A stretch of DNA of 32,016 nt from Euryarchaeota archaeon ADurb.BinA087. Its GTDB lineage: Archaea; Halobacteriota; Methanomicrobia; Methanomicrobiales; Methanospirillaceae. The notes beneath the pieces were generated by a model. That model searched no databases, had not been told where the DNA came from, and worked only from the letters and a program-made list of their open reading frames with translations. The stretch lies in contig MVZQ01000012.1 of assembly GCA_002068435.1 (NCBI GenBank), forward strand, positions 1 through 32,016, written 5' to 3'. Position 1 is the stretch's first letter, and each line of letters starts with the position of its first letter. Of the stretch, positions 20,898-26,679 are shown piece by piece. A program made the position numbers and the translations under genes.

Positions 20898-21698
20898 ATG
20901 CCAAGACTCAATCCAATCCTTTTCATGCTCATCGGAGTAGTGCTCTTCCTGGTGATCGCAGGCTGCACTTCCCCCCCGGTCATGCCGGCAGTTCCGAAAG
21001 TAACGATCATGGAACCTGCAAATGGTGCCACCCTCTCTTCCGGAGCGGTAGTGGTGACAATCCAGGTGCAGAACTTCTCCATTGTTGACAAGGAGGGGCA
21101 GGCCAGCGTTCCGGGAGAAGGGCATGTCCATTACTACCTCGATGTCAGCCCGATTCCGATTGATCCAACGAAGCCCGCTCTTCCCGCAGACATCGATGCC
21201 ATCTGGGCACATGTTGCAGCACCGTCCTACACCTTTACCAATGTGACACCCGGAATGCACACCCTGTCCGTGCAACTGGTAAATAATGATCATACTCCTG
21301 TTATTCCCCTTGCCACCAGTATGGTATCAGTTGTTATACCGGCTCCGACGATTACTATACCGACCCCGACGACAATTACACCCACCCCGACTACCATGCC
21401 TCCAGGGCAGACCATCCCCCTCTCACTCGTTGCGAAGAACAATGCTTTTAACATAAGCACCATCACCGTTCCCGCCGGGGCCGCGGTGGTTATGACGTTT
21501 GACAACCAGGACAGATTCCCCCATAACGTTGCGCTCTACACGGACTCTACAGCAAGGACGACGATCTACAAAGGAGAGATAATCACCGGTCCAAAGGTGA
21601 TAACCTACACCTTCAACGCACCCTCCCAGCCCGGGACGTACTTCTTCAGGTGCGATGTGCATCCGTCAACAATGACCGGTTCATTTGTCGTCACCTGA
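20898..21698 (+). CDS. Copper lipoprotein: DUF4399-like domain + cupredoxin
   Basis: 266 residues. Signal with lipobox at C23 (VIAGC). Residues about 33-146 are the same domain as in the lipoprotein at 14526-15074 (VPGEGHVHYYLD, VNNDHTPVIP). A Thr/Pro linker (about 148-172) leads to a plastocyanin-like cupredoxin, residues 174-266, with a complete type-1 copper site: H209 (FPHN), C252, H255 and M259 (RCDVHPSTM). Such proteins carry electrons outside the cell or buffer copper. The multicopper oxidase at 1-2562 is a possible partner, but they are 18 kb apart. The ribosome site is GGAGAAGG; ATG 20898 is consistent with the signal peptide. Confidence 0.9.
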   Translation: MPRLNPILFMLIGVVLFLVIAGCTSPPVMPAVPKVTIMEPANGATLSSGAVVVTIQVQNFSIVDKEGQASVPGEGHVHYYLDVSPIPIDPTKPALPADIDAIWAHVAAPSYTFTNVTPGMHTLSVQLVNNDHTPVIPLATSMVSVVIPAPTITIPTPTTITPTPTTMPPGQTIPLSLVAKNNAFNISTITVPAGAAVVMTFDNQDRFPHNVALYTDSTARTTIYKGEIITGPKVITYTFNAPSQPGTYFFRCDVHPSTMTGSFVVT

Positions 21699-22005: not shown

Positions 22006-22323
22006 TCAGGGTATTTTGGACCCCCAGATCGTGTGTTCATACCGCTGTGCTTTCTCTGCACCTCTCGTGCAGAAACTTTTATACTTCAGCCCTATGGCTT
22101 TGGTCACCGGGCAGGTGGGGCACATGCACCCTTTCTCAGCCGAGATGCACATGAAACTCTTTCCGGTTGCGCAGAAGAGTAATTCTTCATTCTTCTTGGC
22201 ACAGGAGTTGTGGGTCGGACAGGTTGGACAGATACAGACCTTCTTGTTCTCGGCGATCCATTGTGCCTGCTGGTCTGCCGTCATACCCTTCATCTTCTTC
22301 ATCAGATCTTCAAAGGCATCCAT
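22006..22323 (-). CDS. DUF2769 Cys-rich protein
   Basis: 105 residues with a short helical start (FEDLMKKMKGM) and then 10 Cys in two similar blocks: CICPTCPTHNSC...C and C...CMCPTCP...C. This is the DUF2769 pattern. The spacing (C-x-C-P-x-C-P) suggests metal binding, zinc or Fe-S, though this is not proven for the family. It is encoded back to back with a larger protein that carries the same module at its N-terminus. GGTG precedes the ATG, and a minus-strand TATA (TTATAAATTT, about 22383-22392) lies about 60 bp upstream. Likely cytosolic, no signal. Confidence 0.82.
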   Translation of the reverse strand: MDAFEDLMKKMKGMTADQQAQWIAENKKVCICPTCPTHNSCAKKNEELLFCATGKSFMCISAEKGCMCPTCPVTKAIGLKYKSFCTRGAEKAQRYEHTIWGSKIP

Positions 22324-22381
22324 GGGAACACCACAGCGATGTAGGAGGAACAGATGACATTAAAGATATCCCTGAATTCCA

Positions 22382-22470
22382 AAATTTATAACAAGGCGTC
22401 AGAGGACCGAGATCTCCTCTTCTCCGTGATGATCCCAATTTCCCGTAAGTTTTATGATTCATCATAGGTG
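22382..22470. promoter_or_regulatory. Divergent promoters of the two DUF2769 genes
   Basis: Minus-strand TATA TTATAAATTT (about 22383-22392) serves the small DUF2769 gene. Plus-strand TATA-like TTTTATGATT (about 22448-22457) and the ribosome site GGTGAT (about 22467) serve the fusion gene at 22485. The 161-bp spacer suggests joint control. Confidence 0.45.
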
Positions 22471-22484
22471 ATTACGGTCGTACG

Positions 22485-23963
22485 ATGAAGGTCCCTGATA
22501 CCAAGGAGACCCGGGATCAGTGTCTCTGTCCCGGATGTCCCTCTTACCCCCATTGGTGTAAAGGTGAGGTGTTGTATTGTTCTGCCGGTTGTACCTCATG
22601 CGACATCAATGCAAAAGGATGTATCTGTCCTGATTGTGCAATCTATGCACAATATTCCCTTGAATGGATTTATTTCTGCGACAAGGAATCCGACGAGGAA
22701 TCGGGCGTGGTGATGCGGAAAAAACGCTCCCATGAGGATAACGGGGTGTATCAGGAGATACACGACATCAAGACAATTGCATCAACCGGAAAGAGTATGG
22801 TACGTTCGATGGGATCGCAGAAACAGCTCCCCTTCTCATTGGATGATCTTCACCTTGTCCCGGCACAGATCGCTCAAATCCCCAGAAACCGGGAAGATCC
22901 GGTGAATACCCAGATCGTGATCGGCCCGGCATCTGCGAGGCCCCTCGTATCCTCTTCCCCTGTTCTGATATCCGGAATGAGCTATGGGGCCGTTTCAAAG
23001 AATGTGAAGCTGATCATCTCCCAGGTGGCTGCTCAGGAGAAGATCGCGTTCAATTCCGGAGAAGGGGGCGTTCTTCCCGAGGAGCTCGTGGCAAAAGATC
23101 ACCTGATTGTACAGTATTCGACGGGACGGTTCGGGATCAGCGAGACCCTGCTGGAACAAGCTGCAGGGGTGGAGATACGGTTCTCACAGGGAGCCTACCC
23201 GGGAAAGGGAAGTTTCCTCCCCGCCGCCAAGATGACACAGGATATTGCGAGGATACGGGGGTTGAAAAAGGGGGAGGATGCCTATTCCCCTGCCCATCAT
23301 CCGGATATCCGGAATCCCGCCGAACTTGCAGAGAAGATTGACTGGCTCCGTTCCGTGACAAGAGGTGCCCCGATCGGGGCGAAAATAGGCTGTGGGGCAA
23401 TCGAGCAGGATATTGCGGTCCTCGTATCCGCGGGGGTCGACTTCATTGCTCTCGATGGATTCGGTGGCGGGACAGGAGGGACCAATGACTTTGTACGCGA
23501 GAATGTCGGGATTCCCCTCGTGGTAGCAGTGCCCCGTGCTGCACGGTATCTGAGGGAACTGGGCGTCAGGGACAAGGTCTCGTTGCTCTGCGGGGGATCG
23601 CTTCGGACCTCCGGAGATTTCACAAAGTGCCTTGCCCTGGGGGCAGACGCAGTGTATATTGGCACGGCCGCTCTGATTGCCATCAACTGCGAACAATACC
23701 GGCTGTGCCATACCGGTCTCTGCCCTACCGGAGTGACCACCCAGAGACCTGATCTGGTAAGGCGATGCGATGTTCCAAAGGGCGTCGTTCGGCTGGGAAA
23801 TTTCATAAGGGCCATGACCGGGGAGATCGCTGACCTGACCCGGATTGCCGGCAAAGACACCATCCATGATCTCACCTGCCGCGATCTGGTCTCTTTCAAC
23901 AGGGACCTGGCCCTCATAACCGGGTGCCCGTGGGTGGGCGAACGATCCGGGGGAGATTCATGA
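22485..23963 (+). CDS. DUF2769 module fused to glutamate synthase-like FMN/Fe-S domain
   Basis: 492 residues. Residues 13-65 hold 11 Cys in the DUF2769 pattern (CLCPGCPSYPHWC, later CICPDC). A variable link follows. Residues about 140-480 match the FMN-binding (alpha2) domain of archaeal-type glutamate synthase: ISGMSYGAVS (163-171), SGEGG (191-195), GAKIGCGAIEQD, FIALDGFGGGTGG (320-332), LLCGGSLRTSGD, and the Fe-S cluster cysteines C402, C408 and C413 (C-x5-C-x4-CPTG). The amidotransferase and GXGXG domains of bacterial GltB are absent. It may transfer electrons or make glutamate with a separate glutaminase; a different substrate is possible. Start supported by GGTGAT. Confidence 0.85.
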   Translation: MKVPDTKETRDQCLCPGCPSYPHWCKGEVLYCSAGCTSCDINAKGCICPDCAIYAQYSLEWIYFCDKESDEESGVVMRKKRSHEDNGVYQEIHDIKTIASTGKSMVRSMGSQKQLPFSLDDLHLVPAQIAQIPRNREDPVNTQIVIGPASARPLVSSSPVLISGMSYGAVSKNVKLIISQVAAQEKIAFNSGEGGVLPEELVAKDHLIVQYSTGRFGISETLLEQAAGVEIRFSQGAYPGKGSFLPAAKMTQDIARIRGLKKGEDAYSPAHHPDIRNPAELAEKIDWLRSVTRGAPIGAKIGCGAIEQDIAVLVSAGVDFIALDGFGGGTGGTNDFVRENVGIPLVVAVPRAARYLRELGVRDKVSLLCGGSLRTSGDFTKCLALGADAVYIGTAALIAINCEQYRLCHTGLCPTGVTTQRPDLVRRCDVPKGVVRLGNFIRAMTGEIADLTRIAGKDTIHDLTCRDLVSFNRDLALITGCPWVGERSGGDS

Positions 23964-24004
23964 ATTCTGCAGATGAACCGGACATCTTTTTTTCCGCAAA
24001 CTAT

Positions 24005-24040
24005 GTTTCAAAAAATGAAAGTGAGACAATTGGTTATCAT
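24005..24040 (+). promoter_or_regulatory. Promoter of the copB gene pair with palindrome D
   Basis: GTTTCAAAAAATGAAAG (24005-24021) is followed after 10 bp by a weak TATA-like GGTTATCAT (24032-24040). The predicted start of transcription is close to ATG 24063, giving a leaderless message. The geometry equals copies A-C. Confidence 0.45.
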
Positions 24041-24062
24041 TCCGGATCTTCCATCAGGATCC

Positions 24063-24533
24063 ATGAACTCCTTGTCAGCCCCGGCACCTCCCGTTGCCAG
24101 GATCGATCCCTGTTCTGATCCCCCTGACCGAGCTGATCGTTCCCCCCGTGTGGTAATCCCCGACAGAACAGAACCGGGTATTCCGGATTTCTTTGATGCT
24201 GCCACCCGTACCGTGATGGAGCGTTTTCACGAACAGTGCCGAATCGAAGGGGTGCCTCTTTATCCTGAAGAGTTGATCGAATGGGGATTGTTCGAGTCGT
24301 TTCTTTCTGCCCATGTGGCACCTGATTCACGACGGGAGATCCCATGCATGTTCCTCTGGGCTGAATGGGTCAGGTTTTCCTTCCCCCGGATGCGAACCTT
24401 CCCCTCCCTCATCCGTGAGAAAGAATTCCGAACATTGCTCAGGGAAATCTTCGGAACGGAGATCGCAATGGATGACCAGCGTGGGCTGACGTTTCCCGGG
24501 ATACGATACATCTCGAACGGTCGTTCTGCCTGA
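24063..24533 (+). CDS. Unknown protein upstream of copB
   Basis: 156 residues. The first 40 are Pro/Ser-rich and disordered; from about residue 50 the chain is well structured (PDFFDAATRTVMERFHEQC, GVPLYPEELIEWGLFESFL, IPCMFLWAEWVRFSFPRMR, REKEFRTLLREIFG). No TM helix or known metal motif. The open frame extends upstream to 23973, but the palindrome and TATA-like site lie in that stretch, so ATG 24063 is preferred. Only 34 bp separate it from the copper ATPase, suggesting one transcript. A helical, possibly nucleic-acid-binding fold is conceivable; no family was recognised. Confidence 0.6.
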   Translation: MNSLSAPAPPVARIDPCSDPPDRADRSPRVVIPDRTEPGIPDFFDAATRTVMERFHEQCRIEGVPLYPEELIEWGLFESFLSAHVAPDSRREIPCMFLWAEWVRFSFPRMRTFPSLIREKEFRTLLREIFGTEIAMDDQRGLTFPGIRYISNGRSA

Positions 24534-24567: not shown

Positions 24568-26679
24568 GTGGACGAGAGGAAGCACGAGCCCGTGCACGAA
24601 GCCGGTCATGATCATCATAAAGAAGCTCCTCCCCCGATAAGTCACGGAACTCCAGGAGATAACACACCCAAGGGGACCCATCATCCCCATGAGAAGCACC
24701 AATCAACCGGGGGAGAGGAGGCGGGTATGCACGGCTCCCATGGGCACATGATGGAGGACTACCGGAGACGGTTCATCGTCTCGATGATCCTCACGGTGCC
24801 AATCCTCATTTTATCATCGACCATCCAGGCGCTCCTTGGATTCACCCTCGTCTTTCCCGGATCTGACCTGGTACTCCTCAGCCTGGCTACCGTAGTGTAC
24901 CTCTACGGAGGATGGCCGTTCCTGAAAGGGATCGTACGTGAGATCCGCTCCCGCCTCCCCGGCATGATGACCCTGATCGCGGTTGCCATCACCGTGGCGT
25001 ATGGGTTCAGTGCATCGGTTGTCCTTGGGCTTGTCACAGGGGAACCCTTCTTCTGGGAACTGGCCACCCTGATCGATATCATGCTCCTCGGCCACTGGCT
25101 GGAGATGCGATCGGTCCTTGGCGCTTCGCGTGCCCTCGAGGAGCTGGTCATGATCATGCCATATGAGGCGCATCTGCTGAGGGAGGGTGGGACAACAGAA
25201 GAAGTTCCTGTCGAACGACTCGTGCCGGGAGACCGGGTGCTGGTCAAGCCGGGTGAGAAAGTTCCCGTCGATGGAATCGTGGCAGAGGGGAGATCCAATA
25301 TCAATGAATCGATGCTCACCGGGGAGTCCCAGCCGGTCGCTAAGAAGGGAGGAGATACGGTCACCGGCGGTTCCACGAACGGGGAAGGATCTCTGGTCGT
25401 GGAGGTGACAAAGGTCGGGAGGGACACCTATCTTAGCCAGGTGATCGAACTCGTGCGGAAAGCCCAGGAGAGCAGGTCCCGGGCACAGGACCTTGCAAAC
25501 CGGGCAGCCCTCCTCCTTACCCTGGTTGCCCTCTCGGTCGGTGCGATCACCTTCCTTGGCTGGTATCTCCTTGGCGAGAGCCTGGATTTTGCCATCGAAC
25601 GGATGGCTACCGTCATGGTCATCGCCTGCCCGCATGCCCTCGGCCTGGCAGTCCCTCTTGTCGTCGCGGTCTCGACCACCCTCGCAGCAAAATCCGGTCT
25701 CCTGATCAGGGACCGGCAGGCCTTCGAGCGGGCAAAAGACCTCCAGGTGATCGTGTTTGACAAGACCGGAACCCTCACCAGGGGGATTTTCGGAGTCACC
25801 GATATTCTTCCCTTTGATGAAAGGGGAGAGGAGGAGGTGCTTATGAAGGCCGCTTCACTGGAAGCAAATTCAGAGCACCCCATTGCCCGGGGGATCATGC
25901 GGACCGCAGAAGAGCGGGGGATTGCACTCATCCCTCCACAAGACTTCAGGGCTCTGCCCGGGAAAGGGGTGGAAGGACAACTTAGGGGTATTCTTACCAG
26001 GATTGTGAGCCCCGGGTACCTGGAGGAGGAAGGGATAATGATCCAGGATCAGCGGGTGGAAAAGCTCGCAACGCAGGGAAAGACGGTGGTGTTTGTGCTC
26101 CAGGAGAGGACTGTTGTCGGGGCACTGGCGCTGGCAGATATCATCCGTGATGAATCCCGCGAGGCGATATCCCGGCTTAATGCCATGGGGATCAGGAGCA
26201 TGATGCTTACGGGGGACAACCGGTTTGTTGCCCGGTGGGTGGCGGAAGATCTCGGGCTTGCCGATTATTTTGCCGGGGTGCTCCCCCACGAGAAGTCGGG
26301 AAAGATCAGGGAAGTCCAGGATCAGTACCGGGTCGGTATGGTTGGTGACGGGATCAACGATGCCCCTGCCCTGGTCCAGGCAGATCTGGGAATTGCAATC
26401 GGGGCAGGAACCGATGTGGCGGTCGAGAGTGCGGATATCGTGCTTGTCCGAAGTGACCCGCGGGATGTTGCCGATATCATTGCGCTTTCGAAAAAGACCT
26501 ATTCGAAGATGGTCCAGAACCTTCTCTGGGCTACCGGGTACAACAGTTTTGCCATCCCCCTGGCAGCCGGTGTTGCATCCGGCTACGGAATCATCCTCAC
26601 TCCTGCATTCGGGGCTGCGCTGATGAGTATCAGCACCGTTATCGTTGCGATAAATGCCCAGACCCTCAAGCTGACCTGA
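24568..26679 (+). CDS. copB: CopB-type copper P-type ATPase
   Basis: 703 residues from a GTG start with AAAGGTGAGG upstream. A His-rich N-terminus (about 16 His in residues 7-60) replaces the CxxC metal domain of CopA. All P-type motifs are present: TGES (251-254), the CPH membrane motif (354-356), DKTGT with phosphorylated D398, SEHP (435-438), and GDGINDAP (593-600). CPH and the last-helix MSISTVIVAINAQ are typical of the P1B-3 group (CopB), which exports copper, Cu(II) or Cu(I). With the multicopper oxidase and cupredoxin in the same region, copper detoxification or supply to the outside is likely. Other metals cannot be fully excluded. Confidence 0.93.
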   Translation: MDERKHEPVHEAGHDHHKEAPPPISHGTPGDNTPKGTHHPHEKHQSTGGEEAGMHGSHGHMMEDYRRRFIVSMILTVPILILSSTIQALLGFTLVFPGSDLVLLSLATVVYLYGGWPFLKGIVREIRSRLPGMMTLIAVAITVAYGFSASVVLGLVTGEPFFWELATLIDIMLLGHWLEMRSVLGASRALEELVMIMPYEAHLLREGGTTEEVPVERLVPGDRVLVKPGEKVPVDGIVAEGRSNINESMLTGESQPVAKKGGDTVTGGSTNGEGSLVVEVTKVGRDTYLSQVIELVRKAQESRSRAQDLANRAALLLTLVALSVGAITFLGWYLLGESLDFAIERMATVMVIACPHALGLAVPLVVAVSTTLAAKSGLLIRDRQAFERAKDLQVIVFDKTGTLTRGIFGVTDILPFDERGEEEVLMKAASLEANSEHPIARGIMRTAEERGIALIPPQDFRALPGKGVEGQLRGILTRIVSPGYLEEEGIMIQDQRVEKLATQGKTVVFVLQERTVVGALALADIIRDESREAISRLNAMGIRSMMLTGDNRFVARWVAEDLGLADYFAGVLPHEKSGKIREVQDQYRVGMVGDGINDAPALVQADLGIAIGAGTDVAVESADIVLVRSDPRDVADIIALSKKTYSKMVQNLLWATGYNSFAIPLAAGVASGYGIILTPAFGAALMSISTVIVAINAQTLKLT

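Follow-up and report, generated by a model that had tools for sequence, protein, structure and literature searches.

A DUF2769 module fused to a diverged glutamate synthase-like flavoenzyme in archaea: a candidate electron carrier in the slot of rubredoxin and ferredoxin

Introduction

Glutamate synthases are the closest described relatives of the protein reported here. The bacterial and cyanobacterial enzymes of known structure (1ea0 and 1ofe) share its barrel fold and the three cysteines of its [3Fe-4S] motif, but they are far larger multi-domain enzymes and have different key residues in their pocket. Likewise, the putative F420-dependent glutamate synthase (FGltS) of methanogens (PMC3448663) contains a domain of the same FMN/[3Fe-4S] family; it differs in its gene environment, in its pocket, and in having a ferredoxin where our protein has a module known as DUF2769. 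The nearest large clade is formed by the rubredoxin-GltS proteins of methanogenic archaea (38 loci), in which the same core is preceded, in the same slot, by a redox module, in this case rubredoxin. While both this family of enzymes and the concept of electron entry at the N-terminus are known already, the occupation of this slot by DUF2769 appears to be new.

In a sample of 393 genomes from this phylum of archaea, 145 contain DUF2769 (Pfam PF10967), but its Pfam entry assigns no function, and it is named in no paper of the open full-text literature that we searched. In the following, we add to this entry a recurrent fusion, a genomic linkage and an exchange with redox modules, starting from one gene pair of Euryarchaeota archaeon ADurb.BinA087 (contig MVZQ01000012.1; the window, that is, the whole stretch analysed, comprises 32,016 nucleotides). 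We propose, with a probability of roughly 55%, that DUF2769 transfers electrons as a small, metal-binding module of the cytosol and serves a diverged glutamate synthase-like flavoenzyme.

Results and discussion

A divergent gene pair with two DUF2769 modules

The first-pass annotation of this DNA had described a divergent pair of genes with a common DUF2769 cysteine module, one of them fused to a glutamate synthase-like domain, and this description is accurate in its coordinates, orientation and domain content (Table 1). Both proteins are members of PF10967 above its curated cut-off of 22.8 bits, with matches over residues 30–86 of the stand-alone protein (70.7 bits, E 1.5e-19) and residues 13–65 of the fusion (41.7 bits, E 1.7e-10), and the remainder of the fusion matches PF01645 (Glu_synthase; E 1.3e-107). 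At a completeness of about 76%, the assembly contains no further DUF2769 copy, and these two lie 0.3 kb apart. Rubredoxin (PF00301) was matched by neither protein at E-values up to 1, and in Pfam no Fer4-type ferredoxin was matched by the fused module or the stand-alone protein. The ORF that lies between the genes of the fusion and the ATPase is a possible operon member. Upstream of the pair, a cupredoxin-domain lipoprotein-like protein is encoded on the plus strand (20898–21698), and a similar ORF is found in G005, another genome of this genus.

Table 1. Features of the DUF2769 locus (positions refer to the window)
Feature	Position	Strand	Description
Stand-alone DUF2769 gene	22006..22323	-	105 aa; ten conserved cysteines, two CxCPxCP...FC units
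Intergenic region of the divergent pair	22324..22484		161 bp between the two genes
DUF2769–Glu_synthase fusion gene	22485..23963	+	492 aa
N-terminal DUF2769 module of the fusion	22521..22679	+	residues 13–65; Pfam
Glu_synthase (FMN barrel) domain of the fusion	22761..23855	+	residues 93–457; Pfam and fold match to 1ofe/1ea0
Diverged substrate loop of the fusion	23178..23258	+	R232, Y238, S243, F244, retained R258; alignment with Azospirillum GltS
[3Fe-4S] motif of the fusion, C-x5-C-x4-C	23688..23723	+	C402/C408/C413
ORF downstream of the fusion	23973..24533	+	186 aa; no Pfam match; similar ORF at the same place in G005
Copper-type P1B ATPase	24568..26679	+	CPH motif; downstream of the fusion, same strand

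Across 71 sequences, DUF2769 consists of two units, each with a CxCxxCP motif followed by [FY]C and thus with four cysteines, while two more conserved cysteines lie between them. Nine of these positions are conserved in at least 68 of the 71 sequences and the tenth, which is shifted in a type linked to rubredoxin enzymes (see below), in 59. Both window proteins possess all ten, with the second unit of the fusion reading CxCxxCA. The motifs of the two halves can be aligned to each other with an hhalign score of 27.6, a value reached by none of 60 column permutations. Judged from this pattern, the four cysteines of each unit would suffice for one metal site, which suggests two sites per module. 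A PDB profile search with the DUF2769 alignment found no solved relative. In AlphaFold models, the core of the fusion is usable (11 sequences, three of them from the whole-genome loci L046, L047 and L049), with a pLDDT of about 26–42 for the DUF2769 module, and the stand-alone protein has a mean confidence of 50 (17 sequences, none from such loci); these values are too low to assign DUF2769 a fold confidently.

The fusion recurs and is linked to stand-alone DUF2769 genes

A search for other DUF2769 fusions, which had been advised at the outset, showed that the architecture is not unique to this genome. We found it at 13 distinct loci, mostly in methanogens, ANME-1 relatives and Methanoperedens, although it is rare in the window's own class (4 of 232 genomes). 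The copy in G005 is 92% identical to that of the window. Further copies occur in the Methanomicrobiales MAGs G038 (SPRUCE), G415 and G309 (M5.MMPM), the last of which groups by its fusion sequence with ANME-1 despite its name; in Methanophagales/ANME-1 and relatives (G304, G230, G290); in Methanoperedens and another archaeon (L087, L085); in a Methanobacteriaceae MAG (L090); and in G333, where the contig end cuts the gene off. One locus, L086, lies on a contig of 8.4 kb that was assigned to Deltaproteobacteria (SeepSRB2) in binning, but its sequence is ANME-1-like, and the assignment may be a binning error.

The stand-alone gene accompanies the fusion consistently, which bears out the linkage that the first-pass annotation had put up for testing: of the 11 fused loci whose upstream DNA is long enough, 10 have the two side by side (L090 and G333 stop at contig edges). 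The pair is divergent in the window, G005 and G038, where the gap is about 0.9 kb, and tandem in seven loci (G230 and L083–L088), with gaps of about 2–40 bp. The single exception is G415, whose fusion has no neighbouring DUF2769 gene within the 9 kb that were read. Divergent and tandem pairs differ in the subtype of the stand-alone protein; in tandem partners the two halves are joined by a longer linker, and with respect to the Pfam cut-off one of them scores 26.0 bits and another 22.2 bits, just below it.

DUF2769 occupies an electron-carrier slot

To place the fusion among its relatives, we fetched proteins related to its Glu_synthase core, read their N-termini and scanned 52 of them for domains. 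A rubredoxin domain was found at the N-terminus in 38 and a 4Fe-4S ferredoxin domain in ten, one of which is a paralogue from the window's own genome, while all 11 fused members carry DUF2769 there. In a tree computed from the core only, with a quick method, these N-terminal labels follow the clades, requiring 6 changes compared to 35 in shuffles. The rubredoxin members form one clade (SH-aLRT 100), and the DUF2769 members form another (SH-aLRT 100) together with two members lacking a module, one of them truncated by a contig end. Its sister group (SH-aLRT 96) consists of seven genomes of family f7 whose core has no N-terminal module; these genomes hold 3–9 DUF2769 copies each, as opposed to 1–5 in the other genomes listed. 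Upstream of L092, where a hidden DUF2769 might have been missed, every frame is interrupted by stops and a module is absent.

Since DUF2769 takes the slot that rubredoxin or ferredoxin fills in related enzymes, it sits in the position of an electron carrier. As with the fusion, a stand-alone DUF2769 gene is often adjacent to rubredoxin-type loci (13 of 38, in six family codes; in twelve cases it lies upstream in the same orientation, in one it is convergent), and it is found next to none of nine ferredoxin-type loci. This exchange of modules offers a concrete and cheap hypothesis for the role of DUF2769.

As a separate observation, three genes lie on one strand at L174 (G405:C151, 663–4243), encoding DUF2769, a fusion of rubredoxin with a TPP enzyme (607 aa) and a rubredoxin-GltS fusion.

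A glutamate synthase fold with a changed pocket

By sequence and by fold, the best solved relatives of the fusion core are glutamate synthases (Foldseek against 1ofe, E 4.5e-20; the 1ea0 fold is also matched), and the homology spans the whole FMN/[3Fe-4S] domain. C402, C408 and C413, the cysteines of the [3Fe-4S] motif, correspond to C1102, C1108 and C1113 of Azospirillum GltS and are invariant in all 76 rows of the alignment; FMN binding by the barrel is predicted from its fold family. It would be straightforward to regard the fusion as the large subunit of an archaeal glutamate synthase in which DUF2769 replaces ferredoxin as the point of electron entry, and the equivalents of K948 and R957 (R258) are indeed retained. 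The equivalents of K931, K937, G942 and Q943, however, are R232, Y238, S243 and F244. The first three replacements are common to all 20 members of the DUF2769 clade and its module-free relatives, where the fourth position is Y, F or L, whereas the rubredoxin-type proteins keep the K931 equivalent in 38 of 38 cases. We take K931, Q943 and R957 (Azospirillum numbering) to be the positions that hold 2-oxoglutarate in the cyanobacterial FdGltS structures; the three residues of those structures map to K, Q and R with one and the same offset, 35. By this measure, two of the three presumed 2-oxoglutarate contacts are replaced in the fusion, with R258 as the one that is kept.

Furthermore, the genome harbors a set of the FGltS kind elsewhere. 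Going by names read from sequence, contigs C154 and C161 encode glutamine synthetase (glnA), a glutaminase, ferredoxin-GltS, a GXGXG protein and an FrhB-like subunit, the last of which follows the ferredoxin-GltS paralogue on C161. Glutaminase and GXGXG, which accompany this paralogue, are absent from the eight neighbourhood proteins scanned around the fusion, as is an FrhB-like F420 subunit. Because the clade has replaced several presumed pocket residues for 2-oxoglutarate and a canonical set exists elsewhere, it is doubtful that the fused enzyme is a glutamate synthase, and the activity considered in the first-pass annotation is not supported; the large-subunit explanation thus appears unlikely to us. 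The fusion is instead best seen as a paralogue, whose substrate is probably different, and the "glutamate synthase" annotations of this clade probably name the wrong one.

The ferredoxin-GltS gene of the canonical set is split over two contigs, L221 (G000:C154) and L220 (G000:C161). Their ends share the residues SLYPFQDHMIVQVASGRFGVDINY, so the contigs probably abut.

A copper-type ATPase beside some of the fusions

At 4 of 12 fused loci, a P-type ATPase gene is found no more than 2.1 kb from the fusion, compared to 1 of 56 loci in the other clades (Fisher estimate p about 0.003, computed post hoc on partly related loci). The proteins carry a CPH motif in the window, G005 and G415 and a CPC motif in L083, both of which are typical of copper-type pumps. 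Because of these four loci, we keep in mind that DUF2769 could be a metal-handling module, which sequesters, chaperones or senses copper, zinc or silver, with the flavoenzyme acting in a metal-stress response, and the density of ten cysteines in about 57 residues would suit such a task. Yet the ATPase is missing from the other eight fused loci, and with nine P-type ATPase genes in the window's genome, adjacency by chance is not negligible. Moreover, the slot of DUF2769 is held by rubredoxin and ferredoxin in the relatives, and on balance we find a role in metal handling rather unlikely.

A model for electron transfer

Given the exchange of modules, the fusion and the linkage, the simplest reading of the architecture is that DUF2769 acts as an electron carrier. 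The first-pass annotation had suggested a donor of either electrons or metal, and it is the former that has gained from the recurrence, the linkage and the shared slot and is now our best guess. Also in its favor are the high DUF2769 copy numbers of the module-free f7 genomes, the near-invariant cysteines with their two alignable motifs, a second DUF2769 fusion, to a GSDH-family protein (see below), and the retention of the [3Fe-4S] cysteines in all aligned sequences. In this model, DUF2769 would have replaced the N-terminal ferredoxin or rubredoxin domain of the sister enzymes and would deliver electrons one at a time to the [3Fe-4S]/FMN center of the barrel or accept them from it. The adjacent stand-alone protein would probably be its diffusible form, exchanging electrons with the fused module or with other partners, which agrees with the linkage and with the earlier idea of a mobile partner. 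As the substrate pocket of the clade has changed, ordinary glutamate synthesis is improbable, and the barrel probably catalyzes another FMN-dependent reduction or oxidation.

Several observations count against an electron carrier, namely the very low confidence of the modelled module, the lack of a relative in the PDB, the unrelated neighbours of most stand-alone genes, the unaccompanied fusion in G415, the different subtypes in divergent and tandem pairs, and the ATPase. A bolder version of the electron-carrier model, which we put forward only tentatively, sees DUF2769 as a new class of iron-binding archaeal electron carriers with two four-cysteine sites and its partner as a new GltS-derived flavoenzyme with a different substrate. 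If this were true, methanogens and ANME-1 archaea would hold an undescribed redox couple.

DUF2769 in other gene contexts

Among the neighbours of 36 other DUF2769 loci, we found no single dominant partner: most stand-alone genes adjoin unrelated ones, and the families that recur are DEAD-box helicases (five proteins), FMN_red (three), CheW (three) and DUF362 (two). Such promiscuity would be expected of a structural zinc module that mediates assembly or protein contacts and has no redox role, and CxCxxC patterns with prolines occur in structural zinc sites, too. Nonetheless, a purely structural module would have to share one slot alternately with two modules of genuine redox function, and the one further fusion partner that we found is again a member of an oxidoreductase family, which together make this explanation quite improbable. 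The fusion in question was seen in one genome (L048, G284:C5, 7093–8376, minus strand), where DUF2769 is appended C-terminally to a protein resembling glucose/sorbosone dehydrogenase (GSDH); a stand-alone DUF2769 gene lies at a distance of 0.6 kb. DUF2769 ORFs of 208–288 aa in other genomes were also considered as enzyme fusions and set aside, since their extra length appears to come from frames extended upstream or from C-terminal tails in which no known domain is present. Finally, a DEAD-box helicase gene lies near a stand-alone DUF2769 gene in four genomes (L018, L023, L030, L036), and a gene for an NADPH-dependent FMN reductase in three (L024, L027, L031).
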